From NCBI RefSeq assembly GCF_021117425.1, contig NZ_CP088298.1:3720001-3784000 (forward strand): a stretch of DNA of 64,000 nt. The letters run 5' to 3'. This DNA is from Brevibacterium zhoupengii. GTDB lineage: Bacteria > Actinomycetota > Actinomycetes > Actinomycetales > Brevibacteriaceae. The translations under genes and the position numbers were made by a program. Positions 12,828 to 32,100 of the stretch are shown piece by piece (the stretch's first letter is position 1; every line of letters starts with the position of its first letter). The notes beneath the pieces were generated by a model that saw only the letters and a program-made list of their open reading frames with translations, had not been told where the DNA came from and did no database searches.

Positions 12828-12925
12828 ACTGACGATCCTGTGTGAGGATCCTGACCGCTTGTTGGTCCGCAGATGCAGGCCAGGTGAATACTGGACATGC
12901 ATTTGCCGACGCCGGCGTGACTACC

Positions 12926-14928: not shown

Positions 14929-16433
14929 CAGCGGTTGCTGCCTTCCACCTCGGCGACGGTGTTGCGGGTCTGAGTCTTGGGATGACGCAGGGACAGGAGC
15001 CCACCGATCACGACCATGACGATGACGCCGAGGAGCGGGTACCACTGCCAGGCGACCCACACCTCGCCGGTGATGTACTTCTCCATGATGAAGAAGAAGG
15101 CGTTGACCGCGACCGCCAGGGCGAAGGTGATGTTCGCGTCCACGGCGGTGGCGCGCTTGTTGACCATGCCGAACACGAACGCCCCGAGCAGCCCGCCGTA
15201 TGTGATGCCTGCGACGCCCAAAGCCAGGATGACGATGTTGCCCTCATCGGATTGGAAGACGGTGGCGGGAAGGATGAAGGCGATGCCCCAGCCGATGGTC
15301 GCCCAGCGCCCGACCTTGAAGCCCTCGGCGTCGGTCATCGGCGTCTTCTTCAGCCGTGCGTAGACGTCGTTGACCGTCGAGGAGGACAGTGCGGACAGAG
15401 AGGAGGACAGTGTCGACATGGCCGCGGCGAGGATGCCTGCCAGCAGCAGACCCGAGACGCCTGGTGGCAGTCCTTCGATGATGAAGAGCGGGAAGATCTC
15501 GTCGTCGCGGCTCAGGCCCAGATCGGCGGGCAGCGCATGGTCGTAGTAGGCCCAGAGTGCCAGTCCGACCGCGAGGAAGATCGCGAACTGGACGAAGACG
15601 ACGACTCCGGAGACGATGAGTGCCTTCTGTGCTTCGATCTTGGACCGGCAGGACAGGAGACGCTGGACGATGAGCTGGTCAGAACCGTGCGAGGCCATGG
15701 CGAAGACCGCTCCGCCGAGCAGCGAGGGGATGAACGAGTCGGGAGCCGAGATCGGATTGCCCTCGAAGATGAACATGTTGAGCTTGTCGGCCGCCGCTGC
15801 CTCGCCCAACCAGCCACCGCCGATGGCAGCGGTGATGACGATGATCGACAGCAGACCGCCGACGACGTAGAGGCACATCTGAGCCACATCGACCCAGACC
15901 ACGGCCCTGATGCCGCCGATGAAGGTGTAGGCGATCGTGACGAGTGAGAGGACGACGATGATGACGAAGTAGTTCGTGTGGATGCCCAGGCCGTCGAGGA
16001 TGACCTTGACCGGGATGGCGGCGGCCAGCACGCGGATGCCGTCTGCCAGCAGGCGCGTGAACAGGAAGGTCACTCCCGCGGTCGTCTGGGTGGAGGTGCC
16101 GAAGCGTTTGCCCAGGTAGGCGTACGCGGTGAGCATCTCACCGTCGTAGTAGCGCGGGAGCATGAAGAAGGCGACGACGACTCGGCCGAGGATGTAGCCC
16201 AGACCCAGCTGCAGGTAGTTGATGTCGCCGAGGTAGCTCATGACCGGGATGCCGATCACGGTCAGGGCGCTGGTCTCTGTGGCGACCACGGACAGGCACA
16301 CCGCCCACCACGGGATGTTCCGACCACCCAGGAAATAGCCCTGGAGGTCCTTCTGCTTGCCGCTGAGCTTCAGGCCCAACCACGCCGTGGCGACGAGGTA
16401 GGCGATGATCACCAGAAGGTCGATGATCTGCAT
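14928..16433 (-). CDS. Sodium:solute symporter (SSS family), probable MurNAc importer
   Basis: The 501-residue product has about thirteen predicted helices and SSS-family features: GYFLGGRNIPWWAVCLSVVATETSALT near the N-terminus (sodium-site helix) and GGIRAVVWVDVAQ in the middle. It is strongly preceded by AAGGAGAAAGACC. SSS transporters bring in sugars, sialic acid, amino acids or vitamins with sodium. Its place between anmK and murQ in a coupled operon points to MurNAc, anhydroMurNAc or a related amino sugar as cargo. That is inference, because characterised MurNAc uptake is by PTS (MurP) or ABC systems. Confidence 0.85.
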   Translation of the reverse strand: MQIIDLLVIIAYLVATAWLGLKLSGKQKDLQGYFLGGRNIPWWAVCLSVVATETSALTVIGIPVMSYLGDINYLQLGLGYILGRVVVAFFMLPRYYDGEMLTAYAYLGKRFGTSTQTTAGVTFLFTRLLADGIRVLAAAIPVKVILDGLGIHTNYFVIIVVLSLVTIAYTFIGGIRAVVWVDVAQMCLYVVGGLLSIIVITAAIGGGWLGEAAAADKLNMFIFEGNPISAPDSFIPSLLGGAVFAMASHGSDQLIVQRLLSCRSKIEAQKALIVSGVVVFVQFAIFLAVGLALWAYYDHALPADLGLSRDDEIFPLFIIEGLPPGVSGLLLAGILAAAMSTLSSSLSALSSSTVNDVYARLKKTPMTDAEGFKVGRWATIGWGIAFILPATVFQSDEGNIVILALGVAGITYGGLLGAFVFGMVNKRATAVDANITFALAVAVNAFFFIMEKYITGEVWVAWQWYPLLGVIVMVVIGGLLSLRHPKTQTRNTVAEVEGSNR

Positions 16434-16476
16434 GGTCTTTCTCCTTCATACAAGGGGTGTGCGTTTCTTCGCGAGG

Positions 16477-16492
16477 CCTGCATCGGTGCAGG
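16477..16492. other. Small hairpin between anmK and the symporter gene
   Basis: CCTGCA TCGG TGCAGG forms a 6-bp stem with a 4-nt loop in the only sizeable gap (71 bp) of the salvage operon. It lacks a T-run. It could tune the ratio of AnmK to transporter by attenuation or mRNA protection. Confidence 0.4.
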
Positions 16493-16504
16493 ATCCTCAT
16501 CAGT

Positions 16505-17740
16505 TCAGTGGTCTCTTCGGTCCAGAATTCTCAGACGAGTGGGTCTGGCTGCCAGTGGTTCGGGAAGTGTGAGCGGACCGTGTCCCGGGCTCAGCCGTCC
16601 GGCGATGCTCGGATGCGCGGCACCGGTGAGGTTCGGCTCGGTGCCTGCGAGTCCGTTCCAGGTCAGCCATCCCAGCAGTGCCATGAGGAGGGCTTCTTTG
16701 GCTCCTTCGGGCAGTCCGAAGGCCTGATCCGTGCTGGTCAAGGTGATGCCGGGGCCGAGTTCCGAGGCCATTTGCCCCAGCAGCGTCGGGTTCCGGGTGC
16801 CCCCGCCAGAGGCGATGACCGTGGTGACGCCGTGTGCGTGGCAGGCGTCGGCGACCGTGCGCGCGGTCAGCGCCGTGACCGTCGCGATGGCATCATGCTC
16901 GCCGAGGTGGGTCCTGGCTGAGAGGAATCCGTCGAGGTAGTCCGCGTGGAAGAGTTCCTTGCCCGTCGACTTCGGTGCCGGGAGCCGGTAGTACGGATCG
17001 GCCAGCAGCTGCTCGAGCAGCTCCTCATCGACCCGACCGCGTGCGGCCAGCTCCCCGTCACGGTCGAAGTCCGCCTCACCCTTGGTGATCCTGCGGGCGA
17101 GGATGTCGATGAGGGCATTGGCGGGACCTGTGTCGAAGGCCAACGGTGCGTGCTCGGGTGCCAGGACCGTCATGTTGGCGATGCCGCCGAGGTTGAGCAC
17201 CGCGGTCGCGGTCTCGACGTCACCGACGAGGAGGCTGTCGAGGATTCCGACGAGCGGGGCTCCCTGGCCACCGGCGGCGACGTCGCGGGCGCGAACGTCG
17301 GAGAGTACGGGAGCTCCGGTCGCCTCGGCGATCCATGCCGGTTGGCCGATCTGCAGTGTGGAGGTGACCGTGCCGTCGGTGATGTCGTGGCGCACGGTCT
17401 GCCCATGGGAGACCACGAGTTCAGCCTCGACTCCGGTTTCGGTGCAGAGGTCGTTTACTGCCTGGGCGCAGAAGCGGCCCAAGCGGGCATCGACGCCAGA
17501 GACCAAGGACAGCGGAACGTCGGCGGGCTCGAGCAGGCGCAGGATGTCGCGGCGCAGCTGCTGGTCGAATTCGACCTCTCGGCTGGCGATGATGCGCACC
17601 CTCAGTTCGGAGGGACCAGCGGTCTGGCTGTCGTTGCCGTCGTGGCTGCTGTTGCCGTCACCGCCATCGTGGATGAATTCGGCGAGGACGACGTCGAGGG
17701 CATCGGCGGACGTTCCTGTCATCAGGCCGGCGATGATCAT
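16505..17740 (-). CDS. anmK: Anhydro-N-acetylmuramic acid kinase
   Basis: The kinase opens the 1,6-anhydro ring of anhydroMurNAc and phosphorylates it to MurNAc-6-P, the substrate of MurQ. The 411-residue sequence shows the family motifs GLMTGTSADALD (a variant of GTSxDGxD), VSHGQTVRHD, LNLGGIANMT and FDTGPANALID. A His/Asn/Gly/Asp-rich insertion near residues 25-42 is unusual and likely a loop. It overlaps the regulator gene upstream by ATGA. AnmK in a Gram-positive suggests that anhydro-muropeptides are made by lytic transglycosylase activity or taken from other bacteria. Confidence 0.93.
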   Translation of the reverse strand: MIIAGLMTGTSADALDVVLAEFIHDGGDGNSSHDGNDSQTAGPSELRVRIIASREVEFDQQLRRDILRLLEPADVPLSLVSGVDARLGRFCAQAVNDLCTETGVEAELVVSHGQTVRHDITDGTVTSTLQIGQPAWIAEATGAPVLSDVRARDVAAGGQGAPLVGILDSLLVGDVETATAVLNLGGIANMTVLAPEHAPLAFDTGPANALIDILARRITKGEADFDRDGELAARGRVDEELLEQLLADPYYRLPAPKSTGKELFHADYLDGFLSARTHLGEHDAIATVTALTARTVADACHAHGVTTVIASGGGTRNPTLLGQMASELGPGITLTSTDQAFGLPEGAKEALLMALLGWLTWNGLAGTEPNLTGAAHPSIAGRLSPGHGPLTLPEPLAARPTRLRILDRRDH

Positions 17741-18459
17741 GGGCGGCCTCCTCCGTGGGTGTCGGGCAGGGTGAGTTCGGTGCGGATCTTGTAGCGATCT
17801 CCGCGATAGACCGAGCGAACGAATTCGAAGGGCACCCCGTCGGCTCCACGGGAGGTGCGTTCGAAGAGCAGCGCCGGGGACTGTTCGGGGACTCCGAGGA
17901 TCTTCGCCTCAGCCGCGTCGAGGAGGGTCGGCTCGATCGTCTGCACGCTGTGGTTGAGGGAGATGGAGAAGCGCGAGGCCAGCAGTTCGTAGAACGAGCT
18001 GTTCTCCAGGTCCTCCGCGCTCAGGCCGGGAACGAGGGCTGCGGGGATGTGCAGCTCCTCGAGTGCGAGTGGTTCGTCATCGGCTAGGCGCAGACGCAGA
18101 ATTGCGATGGCCTCGGCATCATCGTCGACGTGGAGCCTGCGCCCGATGTGGGCTCCGGCCCTGGTCACGTCGAAGGAAATCACGCGTGAGCCCGGGCGCA
18201 TACCACGGGCGACCATGTCCTCGGTGAAGGAGCTCGCTGCCAGCGGCTGGTCGAGTTTCGGGCCGAGGGCGAAGACGCCCGCGCCATGGCGACGGCGGAC
18301 GACGCCCTTGGCGACCAGTTCGTCGATGGCGCGGCGCAGGGTCATCCGCGAGATGCCCAGCGCTTCGGCGAGCTGGCGTTCGGGAGGGAACTGCTCACCG
18401 GCGGCCATTGTCTCAAGGCGGTCGAGGAGCTGATCCCGAATCGAGTGGAATTTAGTCAC
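17737..18459 (-). CDS. GntR/HutC-family regulator of the MurNAc salvage operon
   Basis: The 240-residue product has an N-terminal winged helix (residues 10-65, PPERQLAEALGISRMTLRRAIDELV) and a C-terminal UTRA ligand domain (about 80-235). HutC-type regulators such as NagR and DasR sense phosphorylated amino sugars; here MurNAc-6-P or GlcNAc-6-P would fit. I chose GTG 18459 because it gives the normal family N-terminus. No ribosome site precedes it, so a leaderless transcript is possible. The start codon lies inside a perfect 14-bp palindrome, suggesting autorepression. The gene heads the five-gene operon. Confidence 0.85.
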   Translation of the reverse strand: MTKFHSIRDQLLDRLETMAAGEQFPPERQLAEALGISRMTLRRAIDELVAKGVVRRRHGAGVFALGPKLDQPLAASSFTEDMVARGMRPGSRVISFDVTRAGAHIGRRLHVDDDAEAIAILRLRLADDEPLALEELHIPAALVPGLSAEDLENSSFYELLASRFSISLNHSVQTIEPTLLDAAEAKILGVPEQSPALLFERTSRGADGVPFEFVRSVYRGDRYKIRTELTLPDTHGGGRP

Positions 18460-18466
18460 GTGACTA
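18453..18466. promoter_or_regulatory. Perfect 14-bp palindrome over the gntR start codon
   Basis: TAGTCACGTGACTA is fully symmetric and contains the regulator's GTG. Binding here would block transcription start or translation of the whole salvage operon. Confidence 0.6.
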
Positions 18467-18494
18467 TTGAGGCATAGGACACACCCTGAAATCA

Positions 18495-20484: not shown

Positions 20485-21621
20485 TCATTCGTGGGCGGCT
20501 TCGAGCAGGATTCCGGTGTGACGGTTCCAGCGCGGTCGGAACGCATAGACGCAGGCCAGTCGCACGAGTGCTGAGCGCTCGTAGGTGCGGACCCGGTCTG
20601 GATCCAGTCCGCTCGCCGAGGTGATCCGAGAGATTTCCCCGATCACCACCTCGGCGTCATCCTGGGTCCAGATCCCCTGGTGAGTGCGCCACTGCGCGTG
20701 GGCGCGCAGGTTGCCCAGGTCGAGTTCGCGTTCGCCGAAGCAGGCGGTATCGACGTCGAGCAGTCCGGGTCCGGCCACCGGATCCCACATGATCTGCTTG
20801 TCATGGAGGTCGCGGTGGATCGGACCCCAGTTCCGCTCCCCCGCCGAGGCAGCACCGTCGTTGAGGAGGTCGGCGCTGACCTGCGTGATCAGTGCATCAA
20901 CCTCGGCAAGCTTCTCTCCGAGGTGGACGTGGGCACGATCGCGCCACTCGTTGAACACGTGCACTTCTGAACTCGCCGAATGAACCGGCATCGACGTCCT
21001 CACCGCCGCAATCGTGTTCGTCGCGGCGCTCGTGTCCGTCCCGGCAGTCGTGTCGGTCCCAGCGGTCGTGTCGGTCCCAACGGTCGTGTTCGAAGTGGAT
21101 GCGGCGAGCGCCCAAGCGTCGAGAGCTTCGGCCCAGGCACGTGACCAATCAGCACCCAGGCTCTGTGGTTCGTGGAGTTCGACGCCAGGCAGTGCGCTGA
21201 GGACGACGGTCGAATCATCCGCGGTGAGTACATCCGGCAGTGCGAAGCCGTTCCGGAACGCTTCGGCTCGATCCTGTCCGGCGACGATTCCATCTGCTTT
21301 GGACGAGCGCACGCACTTGGCGAAACGCCCATCGGCCAAGCGGATCACGGCTCTCTTGCCGGGCCGATGCGAGACCAAGCGATTCCCGGCGGTGCCGAGC
21401 AGGAGTTCGAGTCCCGGCAGCTTCGGATCTCTGCCCTCCTCAAGCATGTCCACTTCGCCGTTGCTGAGAAATCCTGACCTGATCGCAGACCCGTGCTGAG
21501 CTTCGAGCGCGATCCGATCGCGGCTGGCGGGCCAGGCTCGACGCACGGTCCACTTCTGGCCATCGATCGTGACGAACTCGGGGATGGCAGACACTGTTTG
21601 TGCCGCAGGACCCGGCATCAT
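20485..21621 (-). CDS. APH-fold kinase A, last gene of the glycosyltransferase/ABC operon
   Basis: The 378-residue product has the aminoglycoside-phosphotransferase catalytic loop IHRDLHDKQIMW near residue 290 and the metal Asp in LLDVDTACFGERELDLGNL. The metal-site position normally Asn is Gln, as in maltokinase, which suggests a sugar or sugar-like acceptor. The linker near 180-205 holds three copies of a 6-residue repeat (TTAGTD) from an 18-bp DNA repeat at 21031-21084. The ATG at 21621 overlaps the upstream stop (ATGA); 21618 is an alternative start. The substrate is unknown. Confidence 0.75.
   Translation of the reverse strand: MMPGPAAQTVSAIPEFVTIDGQKWTVRRAWPASRDRIALEAQHGSAIRSGFLSNGEVDMLEEGRDPKLPGLELLLGTAGNRLVSHRPGKRAVIRLADGRFAKCVRSSKADGIVAGQDRAEAFRNGFALPDVLTADDSTVVLSALPGVELHEPQSLGADWSRAWAEALDAWALAASTSNTTVGTDTTAGTDTTAGTDTSAATNTIAAVRTSMPVHSASSEVHVFNEWRDRAHVHLGEKLAEVDALITQVSADLLNDGAASAGERNWGPIHRDLHDKQIMWDPVAGPGLLDVDTACFGERELDLGNLRAHAQWRTHQGIWTQDDAEVVIGEISRITSASGLDPDRVRTYERSALVRLACVYAFRPRWNRHTGILLEAAHE
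21031..21084. repeat. Three tandem 18-bp units inside APH-fold kinase A
   Basis: The unit CGTGTCGGTCCCAGCGGT and two close variants repeat head to tail in frame, encoding a Thr/Asp/Gly/Ala linker between the kinase lobes. Confidence 0.9.
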
Positions 21622-22865
21622 TTCGACATCCGCTCTACATTCGCGGCCAGAGCCCGCTGAGCTGCATTGATGGCCTGCCTTGTGGCCTGCTGCCAATCAG
21701 GCCGGCAGGTGCGCCACGGCTCGACGGCCGTGACGAGCATGGCCCAGACAGCCCAGGCCTCCACATCGATGTCGACCCCACCTGCTGCTCGGTAGCCGTC
21801 GAGGAACCCGTCTTCGAGGGACGTGCCGTCCTCGTCGGTGCGTCGTCGACAGGCGGCCACCCATCGGCCAAGGTCCATCCCGACAGGGCCGACACTGGCC
21901 CGGTCGAGGTCGATGATGCGACATTCCGAATGACCGACGAGCACCTGATCGGGGCTGAGATCCCCATGAATCGCACGGGAGCCGCCATCTGCTGCAGCAC
22001 CGGAGAGGGACTCGTGCCCGATCCGCAGTCGAAGCGTCCGAACAATGTCCTGGACTGTGTTGCCAGCCTCGGGCAGCAGTTGTGCCAACAACGTTGCAGT
22101 GTCCTCGGCTTGCTCCAACGGCGATGGAGTGGAACCGGAGACCACCTCGGCGGGGGTGTGGCGGTGAAGTTCTGCGATGATGACTCCCACTTCCTCGGTC
22201 ATAGCGAGGTCCGGGGTCGTCTCGAGGTCGCCGGTCCCCCACCAGGGAGAGCGCACAGCCGTTCCCTCGCTGCCGAAGGATTCGACGGGGAGGGTCGGCA
22301 GCCCCCAGTCAGCCCACTGGCTGGCGGTCTCAACCAGGTGCTGCTGGGAACGGGTGCCGATGCGGATGAACTCGCACACCCCCGAATGCTCCGGTGTGTG
22401 CTTGAGCAGGACCCGCCGACCGGGGTTGTAGCCGATGACGTCGATCTCACCGTTCAACCGTGCAATCGCGCGAGCAGCCTCCTTCCCCAACTTCGAATCC
22501 GCCGCCACCGATCCACTCAGCAGCACACTGCCGGTGACACCGGCAGATCGTGGTTCGCTGCATTCGTGCACGGTGACCGTCTCGTTGTGCCGGGCAGCAC
22601 GCCTGCGAATGTTGCCCAGCTTGTCAGCGCTGGTCACAACCGCAGTCCACCCCCAGTCCTCCAGCCCGCCGAGGCGGCTCCCGGCTTCCCGCGACCAGGA
22701 CACGATGGCACTGCGACCGGGTTTGACCCGAATGCGGTTGGGCACGACGGGAAAACCCAAGCGCTGCGAGAGCGCCTCGGCCGATCTGAGCTCGGTCACA
22801 AACGGCAGGTTCGCGAACTCCGCCGTTGCCTCATCACCGGCGCTATGAAGGTCCGTCAAGGTCAT
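21618..22865 (-). CDS. APH-fold kinase B
   Basis: The 415-residue product has the kinase loop IHGDLSPDQVLV and the metal Asp in CRIIDLDRASVGPVGMDLGRWV (about residues 305-340), with Gln in the usual Asn position as in kinase A. The N-terminal half differs from kinase A, so this is a second function rather than a recent duplicate. Start ATG 22865 overlaps the exporter stop by 4 nt and its own stop overlaps kinase A. Candidates are a sugar or amino-alcohol kinase, or a pseudokinase-like partner. The catalytic His and Asp are present, so I expect activity. Confidence 0.76.
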   Translation of the reverse strand: MTLTDLHSAGDEATAEFANLPFVTELRSAEALSQRLGFPVVPNRIRVKPGRSAIVSWSREAGSRLGGLEDWGWTAVVTSADKLGNIRRRAARHNETVTVHECSEPRSAGVTGSVLLSGSVAADSKLGKEAARAIARLNGEIDVIGYNPGRRVLLKHTPEHSGVCEFIRIGTRSQQHLVETASQWADWGLPTLPVESFGSEGTAVRSPWWGTGDLETTPDLAMTEEVGVIIAELHRHTPAEVVSGSTPSPLEQAEDTATLLAQLLPEAGNTVQDIVRTLRLRIGHESLSGAAADGGSRAIHGDLSPDQVLVGHSECRIIDLDRASVGPVGMDLGRWVAACRRRTDEDGTSLEDGFLDGYRAAGGVDIDVEAWAVWAMLVTAVEPWRTCRPDWQQATRQAINAAQRALAANVERMSK

Positions 22866-24736
22866 GCCCTTACCTCCTGAGGAATATTGCCCATCTGGGA
22901 ATCTTCGGCCTGTGTGCGCATCCACTCGGCGACGCGGGTGCCGGGATTGCCCGCCAGCTCGCTCGGCGATCCGTCTTCGACGATCTGTCCGTCTTCGAGC
23001 CACAGCACCCGGTCGAGGCCGCGGATCATGGCCAGATCGTGAGTGATGACGATGCTGGTGCGCCCCTCGGTCAGCATGGAGACCGAGTCTGTGACCTGTC
23101 CCCGGGTCGCCGGGTCAAGGCCCGAGGTCGCTTCGTCGAAGACGACGACGGGGGCGTCGCGCACCAGTGCCCTGGCGATGGCCAGACGCTGACGCTGCCC
23201 ACCGGAGAGAGTGTCGCCGCGGTTGCCCAACACGGTGTCGTAACCGTCGGGCAGTCCTTGGATGAACTCATCGGCTGAGGCGGCACGGGCCGCGGCCTCC
23301 ACCTCGGCGTCGGTGGCATCCAAGCGACCGTAGCGGATGTTCTCCCGCACGGTTGCGGCGAACAGGACTGATTCCTGCAGAAGCACGGACATGCTCGATC
23401 GCAGGGAGGCTCTGGTGACATTGTGCGTGTCGTAGCCGTCGATGAAGATCGATCCCGATTCCGGCTGCGAGAGTCGCAGCAGGTAGCTCATCAGCGTGGA
23501 TTTCCCGGCTCCTGAAGCGCCGAGGATTCCGACCTTCTGCCCCGCAGGAATGAGCAGATTGAGATCGTCGAACAACGGGTTTCCATGACCGTCGCTCGAG
23601 GTGATGCGGTCGAAGACGACATCACCGGCAACGGGCCCCATGGTGAGCGCGCCGGGGGCGTCGGCAATCTCGATCGGCTCGTCGAGGAGGTCGGCGATCC
23701 GCTCCCCCGATGCGGTGGCGCGGGCGATCCGGCCGGTGTATTTGGCCATATCGCGCAGCGGCTTCATCGCGATCTTGAGGTACATGAGGAACAGCACCAG
23801 ATCGCCTGGGGACATGGCCCCGCGCAGCACCTGGTAACTGCCGAAGATGAGCACGAGAGCCTGGGAGATGCCGACGAGCACATCGGTCGAGCGCTCGAGG
23901 CCGGCAGCGAGGCGACGTGCTCGCACTCCGGCCTTGAGGGCGCGTTCGTTTCCGTTGGCGAATTCGCGTGCCACGGTGCCTTCGAGTCCGTAGGCCTGGA
24001 CGACGCGGATGGCGCCGAGGGCCTCAGCTGCGGAGCCGACGAGTCTGCCCTCGCCCTTACGGGTCGAGCGGGAGGCTGTCGTGATCTTCGGGGTCGCGAT
24101 CTTCGAGAGCACCCCGTAGATCGCGGCCGTGATGAGCACGATGGCGCTGAGGATCGGGTCGAGGATGACCATGACGACGAGGAGGACGGCCAGGGTGATG
24201 ACGTTGCCCACCAGGGGAAGACCGGCGGTCACCGCCACTTCCTGGAGGCGCCCGATATCGCCGACGAGACGCTGGGAGGTGTCTCCGATCGAAGCCCGCG
24301 AGTGGTACTTCAGCGACAGGGCCTGCACATGTTCGAAGACCCGTGAGCGCAGCTGGGTCGCAACCCGGGCACCGACGAGCGCGAAGCAGATGGTCGAGGC
24401 ATAGTTCGCCACGGCCCTGCCTGCCACGATGACCGCCAGACCGATCGCGGCGGCGGCCAAGGTCATCCCGACGTTGGATCCGACGCCGATGGTCGGCCCG
24501 ATCTCTGCGCCGAGGGCAGAAGTCACCGCATCGATGGCGATCTTGAGCGGCCACGGTTCGAGGATGCGGAAGATGACGTCGCAGAACAGTGCGGCCAGTC
24601 CGCCGAGGATGAGCCATTTGTGCTGGCCCAGGTGCGGTGTGAGGATTCGCAGGGTTCGCTTCAGTGCCCCGGGCGAGATCTTCGTCCGGGACTTCTTCGA
24701 CCGTGCAGACTGCTCCGGCAGCGGGGTCTGACTCAT
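22862..24736 (-). CDS. ABC exporter, fused membrane and ATPase domains
   Basis: The 624-residue half-transporter is probably a homodimer. Six helices span about residues 40-330. The nucleotide-binding domain has Walker A GASGAGKS (406-413), signature LSGGQ (510-514), Walker B VVVFDEA (530-536) and the switch His in VITHDL. This is the type IV fold used for lipids, peptides, drugs and glycolipids. Overlaps by ATGA with both neighbours tie it to the glycosyltransferases upstream and the kinases downstream, so it most likely exports or flips their product. Confidence 0.9.
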   Translation of the reverse strand: MSQTPLPEQSARSKKSRTKISPGALKRTLRILTPHLGQHKWLILGGLAALFCDVIFRILEPWPLKIAIDAVTSALGAEIGPTIGVGSNVGMTLAAAAIGLAVIVAGRAVANYASTICFALVGARVATQLRSRVFEHVQALSLKYHSRASIGDTSQRLVGDIGRLQEVAVTAGLPLVGNVITLAVLLVVMVILDPILSAIVLITAAIYGVLSKIATPKITTASRSTRKGEGRLVGSAAEALGAIRVVQAYGLEGTVAREFANGNERALKAGVRARRLAAGLERSTDVLVGISQALVLIFGSYQVLRGAMSPGDLVLFLMYLKIAMKPLRDMAKYTGRIARATASGERIADLLDEPIEIADAPGALTMGPVAGDVVFDRITSSDGHGNPLFDDLNLLIPAGQKVGILGASGAGKSTLMSYLLRLSQPESGSIFIDGYDTHNVTRASLRSSMSVLLQESVLFAATVRENIRYGRLDATDAEVEAAARAASADEFIQGLPDGYDTVLGNRGDTLSGGQRQRLAIARALVRDAPVVVFDEATSGLDPATRGQVTDSVSMLTEGRTSIVITHDLAMIRGLDRVLWLEDGQIVEDGSPSELAGNPGTRVAEWMRTQAEDSQMGNIPQEVRA

Positions 24737-25908
24737 ACCAGCTCCATGACGAACGGTGCCAGGATCTCCTGGCACCGACTGGTCCACGAATGGTGGGCCA
24801 GGGCTTCGGATCGGGCGGCAGCACCCATACGTTGGCGCACCTCGGCGTTGTCGATGAGGTTCTGCAGGGCAGCACTCAGGGCACCGGTATCATCGGCGGG
24901 CACCAGGGTCGCGGCATCTGTGCCTTCGAGAACTGCGGGGATCGACCCCACCGCTGAGGCGACGATGGGCAGCCCTGCCGCCAGGTACTCGTAGATCTTC
25001 AGCGGTGAGAAGTAGTTCTCGCCCGCCGGGTACGGGGCCACGGCGATATCGAAGGTGCGCAGGTGGGCCGGAATCTCTTCGGGGGCCAGCGCACCGTGGA
25101 ACGTCACACGATCACCGAGGCGAAGAGCCTTCGCCTGCTTCTGCAGAGCCTCCGATTCCGGCCCATGCCCGAGGATGTCGAGATGGAAGTTCCCGTGCAG
25201 ACCCGCGCAGGCCTCGATCAGCCGATCCGTGCCGTGCCAAGGTTTGAGGGTTCCCACGAATCCGATCCGCACCGCGCGGCTGTCCGTGACGTCTTGCGCG
25301 GTCGCGGCGGGGGTGATCCGGTCCGTATTCACACCGTTGGGGACGACCGAGACGTCGCTCAGACCCGGATAGTCCCGGTTCACCCAGCCGGCTACTGCAG
25401 CACTGACGCAGACAATCCGCTCGGCTCCGACGAAGCTGTGGGCCGTGGTCCGAGCCGCGTGTTCGTCGTGGACGAGCCCACGATGCTGCTTCTGCTCAGC
25501 GAGCAGAGGTGCGTTGACCTCAAGGACCAATGGCACGCCGAGGCGGCTGCTGATTTCGGCTCCAGCCGTGGAGAACAGCGAATACCGTTCATAGACGAGG
25601 TCAAAGCCCTGATCGGCTCCCGCATCCGGGTCGGACACGGTGTCGACGACCATATCGGCGAGCATGTCGGACAGTCGCATCAGCGCGATCTCGCGTTGGC
25701 CTCGGTCCAGTCCGCGTGGCACCTCGAGGCGGGTGATGTCGACGTCGGCGAGATCGGCTGGGATGTCGTCATCGGTGCGGGTGCAGAAGATGCTGACTTC
25801 GTGGCCGAGGCTCCTGAAGGTGCGGACGACTTCTTGCACGTGGACACTTGCGCCCTTGGTGCCGAAGACTCCGATGCCCGGGTCGAGCAGGATGTAGGCG
25901 ATTCTCAT
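24733..25908 (-). CDS. GT4-family glycosyltransferase (third in the operon)
   Basis: The 391-residue protein has two Rossmann halves (GT-B). The N-terminal domain has a Gly-rich loop (FGTKGASVHVQEV). The nucleotide-sugar domain has SVVPNGVNTDRI, IGFVGTLKPWHGTDRLI and the GT4 E-x7-E region around residues 285-300 (ENYFSPLKIYEYLAAGLP). It is a retaining enzyme, soluble or peripheral. It overlaps by 4 nt with the GT4 gene upstream and the exporter downstream. Donor and acceptor cannot be read from sequence. Confidence 0.88.
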   Translation of the reverse strand: MRIAYILLDPGIGVFGTKGASVHVQEVVRTFRSLGHEVSIFCTRTDDDIPADLADVDITRLEVPRGLDRGQREIALMRLSDMLADMVVDTVSDPDAGADQGFDLVYERYSLFSTAGAEISSRLGVPLVLEVNAPLLAEQKQHRGLVHDEHAARTTAHSFVGAERIVCVSAAVAGWVNRDYPGLSDVSVVPNGVNTDRITPAATAQDVTDSRAVRIGFVGTLKPWHGTDRLIEACAGLHGNFHLDILGHGPESEALQKQAKALRLGDRVTFHGALAPEEIPAHLRTFDIAVAPYPAGENYFSPLKIYEYLAAGLPIVASAVGSIPAVLEGTDAATLVPADDTGALSAALQNLIDNAEVRQRMGAAARSEALAHHSWTSRCQEILAPFVMELV

Positions 25909-27281
25909 GACACGTACTCCAGTTCGCGGTCAGCTTTCGGTGCGTCTCGGTCAGTGTTCGGTGCGACGCGGTCAGTTTTCGGTGTGATTCGGTCGGCGGT
26001 CGGTGCCGCGCGGCCGGCAGCCTGGTCGACCAGCCCGGACAGTTCCCGGGCCTGGGCCGCCGAGTCGTGCAGCCTGCACACCAGATCCCGCGCGGCATCG
26101 GTGATCTCTCGCACGGAATCCGGGGCTTCGCGCAGACGGCGGACCACCTCGGCGATGGCGGTGATGATCTGTTCGGGATCGCTCCCGTCGTCGACGAGCC
26201 AGCCGGTCTCACCATCGATGATGACCTCAGGCACCGCCGTGACATTGCCGGCCACACAGGGAATTCCGGTGGCCATGCCTTCGAGCAGGACGGTCGGCAG
26301 GCCATCGGCGTTGCCGTCGGTGCCGATGACGAAGGGGGCGACGAGAAGGTCGTGGCGGACGAACATCTCGCGGACCTCGGACTGGGTCAGAGCACCGTGC
26401 ATGTCGACGAGCTCGGTGAGGTGCAGAGCGTCGATGAGCTCACGCAGCTCATCCTCGAGCGGACCAGTGCCGACGAGGTCGAGGTGGCAGGGCAGTCCGC
26501 GATCACGCAGCCGGGCAAGTGCAGTGAGCAGATGCCCGAAGCCCTTCTTCTCGACGAGGCGACCGACGGCCAGCAGTGAGGGAATCGCGTGCGCCGCGCC
26601 ACTTGGTCGCTCGGCGATGGCGGGACGGTAGGGGAAACGCTCAAGTTCGAGACCGTTGCGAACGACGACGATCCGTTCGCTGAGCTCGCGCCCCAGGAGG
26701 CGGCGCAGATAGCTGTGGTTGTAGTCGCTGATCGCGATGACGTGGTCGGCGCCTGCGACCTTTCGGCTCAGATCCTCGAATTCGACGCTCTCATGGAAGA
26801 TGTCCTTCGCATGCGTGGTGAACGAGTAGGGAATAGCTGTCAGGGCTGAGGCGGCTCTGGCCACGGTCGTCGCCACCGACGCGAAGTGGGCGTGGAGGTG
26901 GGTGACCTCGTGTTCGAGTGCCAGACGGGCCACGGCAACGGCCTGGACGGCATCGTCGTGGCCGAGTTCGGCAAGGTCACCGAGGTGGGTCTGGAGACCG
27001 GAGGCGATCCTCGGATCCTGCATGCTCTCCTGCCAGGTCTGCCAGTAGCTGCGAGCGCTCGAGGGCCGCTCGACGTGGATGACGGGTGCCTTGACCCTGG
27101 CCAGCTCCGGGTGGAACCGGGTGTCGGTCGTGGGACGGAGGGAGAAGATGACGAGCTCTTCACCGGCGGCTTCTCTGGCGAGGATTTCGGAGACGATGAA
27201 GGTCTCGGAGAACCGGGGATACATCTTCAGCACGTAGGCGCGTCGGACGGAAGGCTTGGTGGGAGTGTGATCAGCCTGCAT
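25905..27281 (-). CDS. GT4-family glycosyltransferase (second in the operon) with repeat tail
   Basis: The start is ATG 27281, supported by AAGGAG 7 nt upstream, and overlaps the upstream gene by 11 nt. The 458-residue GT-B enzyme shows YPRFSETFIVSEI at the N-terminus, HAHFASVATTVARA and the donor-site motif FVIGTDGNADGLPTVLLEGMATGIP (about 320-345). That form is common in exopolysaccharide and glycolipid GT4 enzymes. The last 28 residues are four copies of a 7-residue TDR(x)AP repeat from a 21-bp DNA repeat at 25927-26010, probably a flexible tail. Confidence 0.87.
   Translation of the reverse strand: MQADHTPTKPSVRRAYVLKMYPRFSETFIVSEILAREAAGEELVIFSLRPTTDTRFHPELARVKAPVIHVERPSSARSYWQTWQESMQDPRIASGLQTHLGDLAELGHDDAVQAVAVARLALEHEVTHLHAHFASVATTVARAASALTAIPYSFTTHAKDIFHESVEFEDLSRKVAGADHVIAISDYNHSYLRRLLGRELSERIVVVRNGLELERFPYRPAIAERPSGAAHAIPSLLAVGRLVEKKGFGHLLTALARLRDRGLPCHLDLVGTGPLEDELRELIDALHLTELVDMHGALTQSEVREMFVRHDLLVAPFVIGTDGNADGLPTVLLEGMATGIPCVAGNVTAVPEVIIDGETGWLVDDGSDPEQIITAIAEVVRRLREAPDSVREITDAARDLVCRLHDSAAQARELSGLVDQAAGRAAPTADRITPKTDRVAPNTDRDAPKADRELEYVS
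25927..26010. repeat. Four tandem 21-bp units in the glycosyltransferase C-terminus
   Basis: The units begin CGGTCAG (the fourth CGGTCGG), share TTCGGTG or GTCGGTG in the middle and differ at a few bases each. They stay in frame and encode repeats of the form KTDRVAP, NTDRDAP and KADRELE. Confidence 0.88.
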
Positions 27282-28497
27282 AGCGAATCTCCTTGATCGA
27301 AGTGATGCTGCCACGGCTTGCTGCAGCTGAGTCTGTGCCGATGGGCTCGGCGTCTGTGCCGATGAGTTCGGCGGCGAGATGTGCAATGGTCTGGAGACCG
27401 GCAAGGTCGACATTCGAACGGTCGATCGAGTGGCCCACCCGATCTCCGAACCAGTCGTTGAGCCCGGCGACGCTCACCTCGGCGAAGGAGCAGGTGTCGA
27501 CTGCTCCGACGGCAGCGAGCGCTTCTGCCCGCCGAGGCTGTTCCGCGCGATGGCTGTTGCGGGGGACGACGAGAGCTGGGGTTGGGGTCGCCATCACCTC
27601 GCTCAGTGTGTTGTATCCGCCCATGCAGACAACGGCGCTGGCCGAGGCGATGAGTCCGGGAATGTCGTCGCTGTGTCGAATGACTGTCGTCTCCGCCGCG
27701 GCTGTGCGTTTGAGTGCTTCGAAGTCTGCGAAATCCATCTGCGGGCCGGTCACCACAAGGTGGGTGTAGCCGGCCGGTGGCTGTGAGCGCACGGCGATCG
27801 ACGCGAGTTCGGCGCCGTCGGAACCGCCGCCCAGGCACGTGAGAACGAACTTTCCCGGTGTGGTTGTGGCCCGGTCATTGGGGCGTTCCATGGCCAGGTA
27901 CCCGGTGCATTCGGCGATGCGGGCGAGTTCTGTGGGCACCTCGCCGGTCGTGCGAGGGTCGTAGACGTCAGGATCGCCGTAGATCCAGACTGCGTCGAAG
28001 GAGTCCGCAACAGCACCGGGACCGCCCACTCGATTCCATTCGCGCTCGATCACCTTGGGTGAGTCGAGAACCTCACGCAGGCCGAGGACTGTCCTGCATC
28101 CGCGGGCACGAACGTGGCGTAGTGCTTCTCTGAGTTCACCGTCGATGCCGAAGGGGTGCCGATCAACGATGAAGAGCTCCGGGTCCTGTTGGTCGAGGAT
28201 CGCCTTGATGGCGGCTTTCCGAAGCGCACTGAGTCCCTCCATCGACGAGGCGAGCGCCCGCGGTTGATAACCACCGGCTGCCGGAGTCACACCCGGCAGA
28301 ATCACCCAGTCCCACCCTGCCGGCAGGTCGAAGCGAGTGGCTTCGGGATTGCCCGCGATCAGCAGTCCGCTCACTCGTCGACCGGTCAGTGCGGGAAGGG
28401 CCTTGGCCAAAGCGAAGGCCAGGGCACGGTTGCGGCGGATGTGCCCCAGGCCCAGCGAGTCGTGGGAGAACAGTGCGATTCTCAAAGTGGAATTCAT
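27271..28497 (-). CDS. MurG-like (GT28-type) glycosyltransferase, first of three
   Basis: The 408-residue GT-B protein starts with ALFSHDSLGLGHIRRNRALA, the Gly-rich acceptor-side loop of MurG-like enzymes. Its C-terminal half has LTCLGGGSDG and the donor-site region VVCMGGYNTLSEVMATPTPALVVPR (about 285-315). It resembles the predicted-glycosyltransferase group COG4671 more than MurG itself. ATG 28497 is preferred over an ATG 9 nt upstream. It is the first gene after the response regulator, with a likely regulator-binding repeat just upstream. Confidence 0.82.
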   Translation of the reverse strand: MNSTLRIALFSHDSLGLGHIRRNRALAFALAKALPALTGRRVSGLLIAGNPEATRFDLPAGWDWVILPGVTPAAGGYQPRALASSMEGLSALRKAAIKAILDQQDPELFIVDRHPFGIDGELREALRHVRARGCRTVLGLREVLDSPKVIEREWNRVGGPGAVADSFDAVWIYGDPDVYDPRTTGEVPTELARIAECTGYLAMERPNDRATTTPGKFVLTCLGGGSDGAELASIAVRSQPPAGYTHLVVTGPQMDFADFEALKRTAAAETTVIRHSDDIPGLIASASAVVCMGGYNTLSEVMATPTPALVVPRNSHRAEQPRRAEALAAVGAVDTCSFAEVSVAGLNDWFGDRVGHSIDRSNVDLAGLQTIAHLAAELIGTDAEPIGTDSAAASRGSITSIKEIRYAG

Positions 28498-28499
28498 AG

Positions 28500-28549
28500 T
28501 TCTCATCTTGTCGCGCGCAATTAAGGTGCAATTAAGATTCAGATGAGAA
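28500..28549 (-). promoter_or_regulatory. Direct repeat with 11-bp period inside an inverted repeat, probable response-regulator site
   Basis: CAATTAAG occurs at 28518-28525 and 28529-28536 (CTTAATTG twice on the transcribed strand), an 11-bp period as expected for tandem OmpR/PhoB-type dimers. Flanking it are TTCTCATCT (28500-28508) and its complement AGATGAGAA (28541-28549). It lies directly before the first glycosyltransferase gene and after the OmpR-type regulator gene. Confidence 0.65.
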
Positions 28550-28582
28550 GACTCTTAGGCTCGAATTCAGTCGACGCCGACT

Positions 28583-29242
28583 TCAGTCGACGCGGTAGCC
28601 GAATCCTCGCACGGTGGTGACGAAGTCGCTGCCGAGCTTCTTGCGCAGGTACCCGACGTAGACATCGACGACGTTGGAGCCGGGATCGAAGTCGAAGCCC
28701 CATACGTGTGAGAGCAGCTGTTCTCGTGAGAGCACATTGCCGCGGTTCTGAAGCAGGATCTCTGCCAAGGACAGCTCCCGGGCGGAGAGGTCGATGATCT
28801 TGTCTGCCACCCAGACCTGGCGCTTGAGCAGGTCGATGCGCACGTCACCGCGGACGAGCTCTGTCTGCGGTGCTTCGGTGGCGGTCTCTTTGAGCCGCAG
28901 TCTGATGCGGGCCAGCAGCTCGCCGAATCTGAACGGTTTGATCATGTAGTCCGCCGCACCGGACTCAAGCGCGAAGATCGTGTCATCGGCGTTGTCGCGT
29001 GCGGTGAGAACGAGGACCGGAAGATCGGGTCTGTCTTTGCGCAGTTGGCTGAGCACGCTGAATCCGTCAAGACCCGGCAGCCCGATGTCGAGGACAAGCA
29101 GGTCGAAGTCTCCTGTCAGCGCCAGATCACGGCCGGTGATCCCATCGGCGGCGATCTCCGTGACGAAGCCTGCGGCCTTGAGCCCCTTGGCGATGAAGGC
29201 GGAGATCCGCTCCTCATCTTCGACAACGAGAATTCTGTTCAC
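28583..29242 (-). CDS. OmpR/PhoB-family response regulator
   Basis: The 219-residue product has a receiver domain with the acidic pair VVEDEE, phospho-acceptor Asp in LLVLDIGLPG (about residue 51), Thr in LVLTARD and Lys in MIKPF. A C-terminal winged helix (about 125-219) includes RGDVRIDLLKRQVW and the VDVYVGYLRKKL recognition helix. GTG start; it overlaps the kinase gene upstream by GTGA. The adjacent glycosyltransferase operon is its likely target. Confidence 0.94.
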   Translation of the reverse strand: MNRILVVEDEERISAFIAKGLKAAGFVTEIAADGITGRDLALTGDFDLLVLDIGLPGLDGFSVLSQLRKDRPDLPVLVLTARDNADDTIFALESGAADYMIKPFRFGELLARIRLRLKETATEAPQTELVRGDVRIDLLKRQVWVADKIIDLSARELSLAEILLQNRGNVLSREQLLSHVWGFDFDPGSNVVDVYVGYLRKKLGSDFVTTVRGFGYRVD

Positions 29243-30684
29243 AGCGGTCCTTTCGGCAGGATCATTCGGAACTGGGCGCCCCTGGAGACGTGGTCGAGGA
29301 CAACGGTGCCCCCGTGCGCCTCGGCGATGGCCTTGATGATGGACAGTCCGAGGCCGAAGCCGTGTCCTTCTGTCGACCCTCGGCTGAATCGTTCAAAGAT
29401 GTCGGCTGCGATCTCGTCTGGGACTCCATGGCCTTCGTCGCGGACCCAGATGTGGACTTTGTCATCGACGATGCGGGCGCCGAAGGTGATCGGCTGATCC
29501 TCCTCAGTGTGTTCGACGGCGTTCGAGGCCAATTGCAGCAGAGCCTGCGTCAGTCGCTGTCGATCAGCGGTGATGACGATGGCCGGCGGAGTCTCGAGCC
29601 GCCAATCACGCTGTCCCAACCCCTTGGCCTTGGCCAGGGACTCGTTGAGCAGGGACGGTACGTCGACCTGTTCCGGTCGGACGAAGTCGGGGCGCCGAGA
29701 TCGCGCCAGAATCAGCAGCTCCTCGACGAGTCGGGCCATCCGATCGGTTTCGTCGAGCAGCATCGTCCGGGTCTCATCGACGTCATCGACGTCGCTGGAG
29801 TCCATGGTCTCAAGATGGCCGCTGAGGATGGTCAGGGGTGTGCGCAGCTCATGGCCGACGTCGTCGAGGAAGCGTCGCTGCGTTTCGAAGGAGGCTTCGA
29901 GACGGTCGAGCATGTCGTTGAATGTGCGTCCGAGCTCGGCGATGTCGTCATGGCCTCGCGTGGTGATTCGGCTGCTGAGATCACCGCCGGAGATCGACTG
30001 TGCGGTCTGTCGCAACTCGGTGACCGGAGCCAGAAGCTTCCTGGCCAGCACCGAGGAGATCCCTGAGATCAACAACGCGGCGGCCAGCGCGACGACGATG
30101 TAGATCTGCATGACGTGCGTGAGATCCGTGTGACTGGCGGTGACGTTGTGGACGACGACGAACGACCCTGGGCCGTTGTCCGCCCCGGTTGGGGATCCGC
30201 TGGCGGTGTCCCCACCGGAGGCATTCCCACCGGTCGCGTCTCCACCGGGCCCGGAGGTGATCGGCAATACGTAACCTTCGTATTCGTCGCCGTCGATCGT
30301 CAGTTTGATCTCGCCGCCGTCAGCGGACACTCCGGCCACGGCCTCCTCGAACTCCTGGGAACTGTTCACCGCGGAGTTCGGGTCTCCTTGGTAGAGGACG
30401 CGACCATCGGAGAGGAAAGCGAACAGAGTTTCGTCCTCGTCCGGCCGATTCTGGGCGAGGAACTGGGTGAGGATCTGATCGACGGAGGTGAAGCGCTCCC
30501 CTGTTTCGGGATCGACACCGTTCTGGGCGAAGGAGCGCATCTCTGCGATCTCCTGAGTCATCGAGGCAGAGTTCCGCCCCTCCAGATTGTTCGCTTCGAC
30601 GGTGTAGAGGACAAGCCCGACGACGGTGAGTGCGAGTACGGAGAGAATGGCGACCGTGATCGTCAGTCGGTTCTGAACGGTCAT
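29239..30684 (-). CDS. Membrane sensor histidine kinase
   Basis: The 481-residue product has TM1 near residues 8-29, an extracytoplasmic sensor of about 150 residues with a Gly/Ser/Ala-rich low-complexity stretch, and TM2 near 190-212. HAMP, HisKA (DDVGHELRTPLTIL), the N-box LLQLASNAVEHT and the G-boxes DEGHGVPDE and GFGLGLSI follow. The start is uncertain: ATG 30684 follows the stop of the upstream gene by 13 nt, while ATG 30711 would lie inside that gene's Asp repeat. Neither has a good ribosome site, suggesting translational coupling. It pairs with the regulator at 28583. Confidence 0.9.
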   Translation of the reverse strand: MTVQNRLTITVAILSVLALTVVGLVLYTVEANNLEGRNSASMTQEIAEMRSFAQNGVDPETGERFTSVDQILTQFLAQNRPDEDETLFAFLSDGRVLYQGDPNSAVNSSQEFEEAVAGVSADGGEIKLTIDGDEYEGYVLPITSGPGGDATGGNASGGDTASGSPTGADNGPGSFVVVHNVTASHTDLTHVMQIYIVVALAAALLISGISSVLARKLLAPVTELRQTAQSISGGDLSSRITTRGHDDIAELGRTFNDMLDRLEASFETQRRFLDDVGHELRTPLTILSGHLETMDSSDVDDVDETRTMLLDETDRMARLVEELLILARSRRPDFVRPEQVDVPSLLNESLAKAKGLGQRDWRLETPPAIVITADRQRLTQALLQLASNAVEHTEEDQPITFGARIVDDKVHIWVRDEGHGVPDEIAADIFERFSRGSTEGHGFGLGLSIIKAIAEAHGGTVVLDHVSRGAQFRMILPKGPL

Positions 30685-30697
30685 CCTGATGCGACGC

Positions 30698-31183
30698 TCA
30701 GTCGTCGTCATCATCGCCATCATCGTCGTCGTCATCGCCGTCGTCGTCATCGTCGCCGTCATCATCGTCATCGTCGCCACCGGAGTTGGCGCCGGAGTTG
30801 GCGGAGTCGGCGGGCACTTCGCGTGGCGGGTTGGGCACCGGCTCATAGGAATGCTTGAGTTCCTCGGGCCCAGAAGAGTCGTCAGAAGAGTTCGAGGACT
30901 GACTCGAATCGGAGGATTGGGCTGAGTCGGTGGGACGATCGGCAGAGCCGTCTGCTGACTCGGCGGCGTCGGCTGATTCGGTGGCACCCGCGGATTCTGA
31001 TCCATCGGCGCTCGCGGGGGCCGAGGTCTCGGGAGTCACTTCGACCGGGGTGAGATCTGGTGGCTCCGGCTGAGCGGAGGTCCTGACGATGATGACTGCA
31101 ACCAAAGCGAGCACGACAACCAGACCAGCGATCACGCCGCCCAGAATCTTCGATCGTCCTTCCACGCTCTCAACACTGCCCAA
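30698..31183 (-). CDS. Single-pass membrane protein with Ser/Ala-rich stalk and poly-Asp tail
   Basis: The 161-residue frame is upstream of and coupled to the sensor kinase. One helix spans residues 13-34. A Ser/Ala/Asp/Glu-rich stalk covers 50-105, then comes PEELKHSYEPVPNPPREVPADSA (split here by proline turns). Residues 137-161 hold 22 Asp and 3 Gly in blocks of 5-6 Asp separated by Gly. The tail should be outside the cell and could bind calcium or other cations. The start may be TTG 31183 or GTG 31165; the ribosome site is weak for both. The family is unknown. It is a candidate accessory protein for the kinase. Confidence 0.72.
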   Translation of the reverse strand: MGSVESVEGRSKILGGVIAGLVVVLALVAVIIVRTSAQPEPPDLTPVEVTPETSAPASADGSESAGATESADAAESADGSADRPTDSAQSSDSSQSSNSSDDSSGPEELKHSYEPVPNPPREVPADSANSGANSGGDDDDDDGDDDDDGDDDDDDGDDDDD

Positions 31184-31314: not shown

Positions 31315-32100
31315 ATGAGTGAGAACCGTCTGCCCGATGACGAGGCCCGGTTCAAGGAATCCGAAAGCAGTGACTCTCATCACGAAGGCCCGGACGAGGC
31401 CCCCGACGAGAGCACTGACTCCTCCACAGAGAGCCCCTGGGCCGCGCTCAAACCCTGGCAGGGCAAGGCATCCCGTCTGGACAAGGTGCTGCTCTTCCTC
31501 ATCATCGGTGTCCCACTCGTCTACCTGGGACTCATGCCGCTGCGCCCCTGGATGCTGGTCAACGCCCCGGTCCTGCAGGAGTTCATCAACGGTGCCAAGA
31601 CTGCTGTCGTTGCCGCGGGCGCCTACGCCCGCGTCGGTGAGATTCCGCTGTGGCTCGTCATCGTTGCCGGGTTCATCGGAATGGCGAAACTGGACTGGGC
31701 CTTCTGGTTGGCCGGCAGACGCTGGGGCGACGGCATTCTGAGGCTCTTCGCTCAGAACGAGCGACAGCTCAAGCGCATCGAATCGCTCAAGCGGATCCCC
31801 AACTGGGCACTGTTCCTTATGACCATCGTCTCGCGCTGCCCGGGAGTCCCGGGCACTCTCGTCTACCTCGTCGCCGGCTGGACGCGGATGCGACTGTCAC
31901 TGTTCCTCATCGCCGACCTCCTGGGCTGCCTGATCTTCACTCTCATCTGGACGACCTTGGGCTATCAGCTGGGCGAGGCCGCCGTCGATATCCTCAAGGT
32001 CGTCGACAAGTACGCGCTGTGGCTGACCTTGGCGATCATCGTCGGCATCTTCGTCATCACCTATATCCGCGAGTACCGGAAGCAGAAGAACGCTCAGTGA
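31315..32100 (+). CDS. DedA/VTT-family membrane protein
   Basis: The 261-residue product has an acidic, disordered N-terminus (about 1-45), then hydrophobic segments with the VTT pattern. These include LVIVAGFIGMAKLDWAFWLAGRRWGD, the SRCPGVPGTLVYLVAGWTRM amphipathic re-entrant region, and two C-terminal helices. DedA/VTT proteins are linked to lipid scrambling and membrane homeostasis. AGGAG precedes the ATG. It is divergent from the poly-Asp protein across a 131-bp gap, close to the glycosyltransferase/exporter cluster; a functional link is possible but unproven. Confidence 0.8.
   Translation: MSENRLPDDEARFKESESSDSHHEGPDEAPDESTDSSTESPWAALKPWQGKASRLDKVLLFLIIGVPLVYLGLMPLRPWMLVNAPVLQEFINGAKTAVVAAGAYARVGEIPLWLVIVAGFIGMAKLDWAFWLAGRRWGDGILRLFAQNERQLKRIESLKRIPNWALFLMTIVSRCPGVPGTLVYLVAGWTRMRLSLFLIADLLGCLIFTLIWTTLGYQLGEAAVDILKVVDKYALWLTLAIIVGIFVITYIREYRKQKNAQ

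Follow-up and report, generated by a model that had tools for sequence, protein, structure and literature searches.

Pathways for bacterial surface glycans are commonly classified as Wzx/Wzy, Wzm/Wzt, synthase-dependent, or NdvA-like, and in O-antigen export of the WbdD type a kinase-fold enzyme phosphorylates the glycan, which an ATP-binding cassette (ABC) transporter then exports. Here we describe a block of nine minus-strand genes at positions 20485–31183 of a 64,000-nucleotide stretch of the Brevibacterium zhoupengii genome (NZ_CP088298.1, positions 3,720,001–3,784,000; hereafter “the window”). In this block, a small membrane protein with an Asp-repeat tail (polyD), a sensor histidine kinase (HK) and a response regulator (RR) are followed by a six-gene core, i.e., three glycosyltransferases (GT28, GT4a and GT4b), an ABC exporter, and two kinases of the aminoglycoside phosphotransferase (APH) fold, kinase B and kinase A. 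The core fits none of the glycan-pathway tests applied, yet is conserved from Actinomycetota to Escherichia coli plasmids. We estimate a probability of about 0.5 that the block is a self-contained, mobile, and regulated pathway building, phosphorylating, and exporting an acidic (uronate-containing) surface or secreted glycan. We found no published description of this set of genes in the open-access literature, a scope that leaves out most subscription journals, and no family model for a locus of this composition in Pfam, NCBIfam, or PADLOC, which agrees with an earlier note on this DNA that had proposed an undescribed system. Neither of the two outcomes that this note had named as refuting its proposal, a block that does not hold together in relatives or a product assigned already, was observed. 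What appears new to description is an ABC-exporter-linked glycan locus with an obligatory kinase pair.

Judged by sequence homology, the closest relative of the core is the rhizobial redA-redB-GT/ABC locus (Rhizobium etli pA and p42e, Sinorhizobium pSymB), where homologues of GT28 (35% identity to the window protein) and GT4a (32%) stand in the same order, together with a third glycosyltransferase (GT), an ABC exporter, and a UDP-glucose dehydrogenase. The rhizobial locus differs in that its third GT is a second GT28-like enzyme, its exporter is a distant 904-aa protein, and kinases are lacking, while an oligopeptide importer and a nucleotide cyclase are linked to it, as is a polysaccharide lyase in S. 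meliloti. No functional paper on this locus was found in the open-access literature. Rhizobia, Azospirillum, and Rhodobacteraceae all combine the GT28-GT4a pair and a third GT with other partners, including an importer, a dehydrogenase, a nucleotide cyclase, and a histidine phosphatase or deacetylase. The importer, of the family-5 (oligopeptide) type, adjoins the GT28-GT4 pair in Rhizobium, Sinorhizobium, Rhodobacteraceae, and Azospirillum (L113, L118, L050, and L112), and could take up the same glycan or part of it.

By proposed mechanism, the closest system would be the kinase-licensed O-antigen export of WbdD, a likeness of mechanistic analogy only: Wzm/Wzt is a different ABC type, and the block has no methyltransferase domain. 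WbdD structures were not among the PDB profile matches of the kinases at E 0.01 (fold matches refer to the best 50 listed). Cyclic beta-glucan export by NdvA/ChvA with NdvB also relies on a glycan-dedicated type IV ABC exporter, but the block contains kinases and no NdvB-type synthase, and its exporter scored far under the NdvA/ChvA cut-offs (331.9 vs 733 for NF010178, 265.5 vs 585.4 for TIGR01192). Identity with the PglK flippase (136.4 vs a cut-off of 1000) or the HepA heterocyst polysaccharide exporter (308.9 vs 725) was likewise rejected, and the exporter fell below the cut-off of each named exporter equivalog listed in NCBIfam; its mode of action may be similar to that of PglK. An ABC-2 (Wzm/Wzt) capsule or O-antigen locus was discarded because the exporter carries ABC_membrane and ABC_tran in one full-length chain, i.e., the type IV arrangement, and not as separate subunits. 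A Wzx/Wzy polysaccharide locus was discarded as well, since no Wzx flippase, Wzy polymerase, or priming transferase (WbaP/WecA type) was found among the nine genes or in the near flanks, just as the earlier note had stated for polymerases and lipid-carrier transferases.

Next, we evaluated whether the block behaves as a unit. All nine genes and the overlaps reported for them earlier were confirmed, with small corrections to gene starts. Within the core, GT28 (27271–28506; PF04101, Glyco_tran_28_C, 7.4e-8), a MurG-like GT-B enzyme, overlaps GT4a (25905–27281; PF00534/PF13692) by 11 nt, and 4-nt overlaps join GT4a to GT4b (24733–25908; PF13692/PF00534), GT4b to the half-size type IV exporter (22862–24736; MsbA/Sav1866-like, PF00664 and PF00005), the exporter to kinase B (21618–22865; PF01636), and kinase B to kinase A (20485–21621; PF01636). 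The 4.41-Mb single-contig source genome has a single copy of GT28, and the gene occurs in 37 of 57 Brevibacterium genomes. Kinase B was detected in 30 of these 37 genomes and never in the 20 that lack GT28, the seven GT28-positive exceptions including a broken GT28 (genome G307), a fragmented assembly (G309), and divergent GT28 copies. The aldo-keto reductase and DedA genes on either side of the block are 11 kb apart in a block-plus genome (G299), and 41–953 bp apart in all ten block-minus genomes in which both flanks were found. Since the flanks adjoin where the block is absent, polyD through kinase A are gained or lost as a single piece, and the coordinates that the earlier note had given are those of this unit. 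Both flanking genes remain where the block is absent, and were therefore rejected as members. In G307, GT28 is split over two frames (G307:C2:979046-980235), which suggests that the block is decaying in this genome. Scans for promoters and terminators returned chance-level matches and nothing more.

Beyond Brevibacterium, the core was found in Brachybacterium, Micrococcus, Cryobacterium, Marisediminicola, Millisia, Microbacterium, Rothia, and Arthrobacter, in a Propionibacteriaceae metagenome-assembled genome (MAG), and in genomes from further actinobacterial families, the loci being gathered by a species-genome scan and by class-level and phylum-level searches. The order GT28-GT4a-GT4b-ABC-kinase B-kinase A held in 44 of 49 loci and was interrupted by contig ends in the other five, so that the coupled array seen earlier in a single sequence recurs across actinobacteria. 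Two loci from the phylum-level search (L143 and L146) had a shuffled order, GT28-GT4a-GT4b-kinase A-ABC-kinase B, with both kinases retained. The 11-nt overlap of GT28 and GT4a and the 4-nt overlaps often recurred across genera; gene starts in the related loci were set by rule, and overlaps other than exactly 4 or 11 nt are unreliable. The spread is patchy: 15 of 297 genomes were positive at class level and 18 of 397 at phylum level, under thresholds that differ between the two. That ordinary sugar genes merely came to lie side by side is hardly conceivable: each gene taken singly does belong to a common superfamily, but conserved order, overlaps, co-loss, fusion, and cassette transfer contradict such an origin, and chance adjacency was rejected on the empty-site, co-occurrence, and fusion evidence.

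Outside Actinomycetota, where counts rest on plasmid records, E. coli records, and one genome scan, plasmids of Paracoccus aestuarii and Pseudorhodobacter turbinis have the arrangement GT28-GT4-GT4-ABC-fused kinase, together with a divergent two-component system (TCS). The GT28 of an E. coli cassette was detected in 18 of 5426 complete E. coli genomes, every time on a plasmid. In the E. coli records opened, e.g., the IncF plasmid cassette of pCFSAN004179G and NZ_AP025748.1, the same six core genes stand in the same order, with identities to the window proteins of 30% (GT28), 41% (GT4a), 35% (GT4b), and 34% (exporter), and a profile match of 195 bits for kinase B. Unlike the Brevibacterium block, this cassette has no sensor pair, adds an AlgE-type protein (PF13372) and a UDP-glucose dehydrogenase after the core, and is surrounded by insertion sequence (IS) fragments. 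The core appears to be a horizontally mobile cassette that ranges from Actinomycetota to E. coli plasmids. No PHROG match was found for GT28 or either kinase, which argues against a phage origin, and anti-phage defence was rejected on PADLOC results, i.e., generic ATPase matches to the exporter only. Some of the cassette plasmids come from food-borne E. coli strains negative for the locus of enterocyte effacement (LEE; PMC5009963), no mention of the cassette was found in the open-access literature on its E. coli carrier strains, and no link between the cassette and disease emerged. One cassette-bearing plasmid (NZ_CP012501.1, 145889–175049) also carries genes for gentisate/3-hydroxybenzoate catabolism and a second operon for formate dehydrogenase-N, the two being separated by IS fragments.

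The obligatory kinase pair is the unexplained hallmark of the core. Both proteins belong to the APH-fold small-molecule kinase superfamily, with PF01636, the HxD catalytic loop, and the DxD metal loop in each. Kinase B has an extra N-terminal region, an HGDxSxDQ catalytic loop, and a DxD loop, with catalytic residues invariant over 28 relatives, while kinase A has an N-terminal beta cap and an HRDLHDKQ catalytic loop, with H270, D272, Q277, D290, and D292 invariant (in both alignments the window sequence carried one extra N-terminal codon). For both kinases, the HxDxxxxQ and DxD loops are intact in all or nearly all relatives. AlphaFold (AF2) models of the two kinases, with a pLDDT of 90 each, yielded the APH/choline-kinase fold at TM-scores near 0.45, in line with the fold assigned earlier; a fold predicted in this way does not name a substrate. 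Kinases A and B are fused in at least nine loci, seven of them actinobacterial (five from Brachybacterium, one from Micrococcus terreus, and L108), and the other two from Paracoccus and Pseudorhodobacter, from which we argue that the two kinases act together. The kinases accompany the ~600-aa exporter and are absent where the distant 904-aa exporter (23% identity to the window exporter over part of its length) stands in, as in Rhizobium; this co-distribution, seen in a small sample, hints at a link between the kinases and export.

Two more familiar roles of such kinases were considered. The actinobacterial maltokinase/glucosamine kinase family shares with the pair the APH-like fold, the N-terminal cap, and the HxDxxxxQ loop, but its glucosamine substrate motif, Q-x2-RE-x2-YA-x3-LP-x-W, is absent from all 57 kinase A and B sequences (0/28 for kinase B, 0/29 for kinase A), and its neighbourhood consists of a SIS isomerase and a GT1 (PMC6520443); a glucosamine kinase was therefore rejected. 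A cassette for drug resistance or self-protection, in which the GTs and APH kinases would inactivate an antibiotic for the exporter to remove under TCS control, would suit the fold, common to aminoglycoside and macrolide kinases, and the pairing of an ABC exporter with a TCS, a common resistance layout. We regard it as very improbable, as no resistance or defence model matched and such a role is at odds with UDP-glucose dehydrogenase, AlgE, and a lyase as neighbours. We know of no drug-modifying set in which three GTs and two kinases are kept together across phyla. If the acidic-glycan reading is correct, many proteins labelled “aminoglycoside phosphotransferase family” may be unrelated to antibiotics.

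The GTs and the exporter leave more room for alternative products. GT28 is the most conserved core member, with motifs invariant over 37 relatives, and its nearest solved family is MurG (1f0k). It is not MurG itself, scoring 30.5 against a TIGR01133 cut-off of 250.25 and sharing the GT28 C-terminal domain alone. All solved relatives of GT4a (GlgM, PimB-type, BshA) and of GT4b (PimA, MshA) are weak, those of the exporter include NdvA and Sav1866, and these relatives are too distant to fix donors or acceptor. One alternative is a phosphoglycolipid pathway, in which GT28 would glycosylate diacylglycerol or another membrane lipid, further sugars from the GT4s would yield a tri-glycosyl lipid, the kinases would add phosphate head groups, and the MsbA-like exporter would flip the product. 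MurG-like GT28 and PimA-like GT4 enzymes use lipid acceptors, and UgtP/MGDG synthases are GT28 enzymes as well. The exporter belongs to a lipid-flipping superfamily, and diacylglycerol being universal, no acceptor gene would be required. We nonetheless hold this pathway to be rather unlikely, given that an AlgE-type channel in E. coli and a polysaccharide lyase in S. meliloti suit a hydrophilic glycan better than a membrane-resident lipid.

These neighbours bear directly on the product. Nine actinobacterial loci, from about six genera, have a UDP-glucose dehydrogenase next to the core, an adjacency with P of about 3e-8 (a conservative guess, the background rates being our own estimates), and such an enzyme is also encoded beside the GTs in E. 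coli, Rhizobium, Shinella, and Sinorhizobium; for the E. coli cassette enzyme, the best solved match is the UDP-glucose 6-dehydrogenase of K. pneumoniae. In all-against-all clustering of the flanks, in which many clusters were out-of-frame artefacts of GC-rich DNA, no universal extra neighbour emerged except the TCS and this dehydrogenase. Because UDP-glucose dehydrogenase, an AlgE-type channel, and a lyase (PF14099 at the S. meliloti GT locus) are linked to these genes, we infer a uronate-containing, hydrophilic glycan. The lyase, which suggests a polymer, speaks at the same time against a secreted small phospho-glycoside, i.e., a small acceptor phosphorylated by a kinase, glycosylated by the GT4s (MshA/GlgM-type), and exported to act as a signal, an antibiotic, or a metal-binding agent, to be re-imported in rhizobia through the oligopeptide-type importer. 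Such a product would account for the patchy distribution, for the family-5 importer that accompanies the GT trio of rhizobia, Azospirillum, and Rhodobacteraceae, and for the small acceptors taken by the solved GT4 relatives MshA, GlgM, and BshA; as the GT4 similarity is weak and not discriminating, and no family-5 importer was seen beside kinase-bearing loci with annotated neighbours, we consider it unlikely.

For the acidic-glycan pathway that we favor, GT28, GT4a, and GT4b would act in turn to assemble a short oligosaccharide or repeat on a host-made acceptor that is probably a lipid carrier, one of the donors being UDP-glucuronate supplied by UDP-glucose dehydrogenase. The paired kinases, as one complex, would phosphorylate the glycan or its primer, and the exporter would carry the product over the inner membrane, possibly reading its phosphorylated state, a step modelled on the kinase-made chain ends that license some O-antigen exporters; as the product we prefer a lipid-linked glycan that the exporter flips. 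An AlgE-type channel would then mediate outer membrane passage in Gram-negative carriers, while in Brevibacterium HK and RR would probably switch the pathway, with polyD as a putative cation or envelope-stress accessory. The order of reactions, acceptor, donor use, kinase substrate, and signal proposed here are deductions from gene content and sequence families. The phosphorylated, glycosylated, and exported glycoconjugate of the earlier note is strengthened by the dehydrogenase, AlgE, and lyase neighbours found elsewhere, and stays a prediction.

Several observations weigh against this pathway. The Brevibacterium UDP-glucose dehydrogenase is unlinked, lying elsewhere in the genome whether the block is present or absent, and its presence or absence within the genus is uninformative, as all 57 genomes carry it. 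The core contains neither a polymerase nor a priming transferase nor a gene for a dedicated acceptor, so that a polymer can be inferred at most. The rhizobial GT trio gets by without kinases, the second E. coli kinase corresponds to kinase A mainly by position (its profile being weak, 42 vs 38 bits), and the role of phosphorylation is guesswork, substrates not being readable from a modelled fold. Gene content, conservation as a unit, intact kinase active sites, the kinase fusion, and the neighbour associations are direct observations. A more specific proposal, that the loci form a separate cross-phylum class in which an obligatory APH-fold kinase complex phosphorylates an acidic glycan built by three GTs and thereby licenses type IV ABC export, is put forward tentatively. 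If the favored pathway is correct, the block would specify a mobile glycan, surface-bound or secreted, that has so far gone unrecognised, and APH-fold kinases, usually seen as drug-resistance or small-molecule enzymes, would gain a role in glycan export.

The sensor pair had been counted as part of the system, which is the case in the Brevibacterium block, but in other lineages the pair is optional. HK (29239–30684; HAMP-HisKA-HATPase by Pfam/NCBIfam) has an ATG start at 30684 with alternatives at 30711 and 30714, and overlaps RR (28583–29242; an OmpR-type regulator by Pfam/NCBIfam) by 4 nt (GTGA). The pair adjoins the core in Brevibacterium, Microbacterium, two further loci (L099 and L138), Paracoccus, Pseudorhodobacter, and a gammaproteobacterial MAG; other loci lack it. 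PolyD, HK, and RR are thus an optional add-on, the constant part being the six downstream genes. PolyD (30698–31183, TTG start, alternative starts at 31165 and 31135) has one N-terminal transmembrane segment, conserved PPDLTPVEVTPE and HSYEPVPNPPREVP segments, and a variable Asp-repeat tail, and matched no family in a Pfam search. Its homologues occupy the same position in 13 of 13 Brevibacterium loci with varying tail length. The tail (30698–30800) is encoded by a repeat of GAC/GAT triplets that differs in copy number among Brevibacterium species, and in another reading frame this repeat inflates the mechanical open reading frame of HK. A PepSY-domain protein precedes the TCS in Pseudorhodobacter and may correspond to polyD.

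Two features beside the block complete the picture of the window. The DedA/VTT-domain gene (31315–32100) is divergent from the block and shows a weak likeness to the undecaprenyl-phosphate transporter UptA. On the other side, the minus-strand stretch 11151–18480 encodes AnmK, a GntR/UTRA regulator, an SSS symporter, a SIS-domain (MurQ-like) protein, and a BadF-type kinase, and is likely a recycling cluster for N-acetylmuramic acid (MurNAc) and anhydro-MurNAc.

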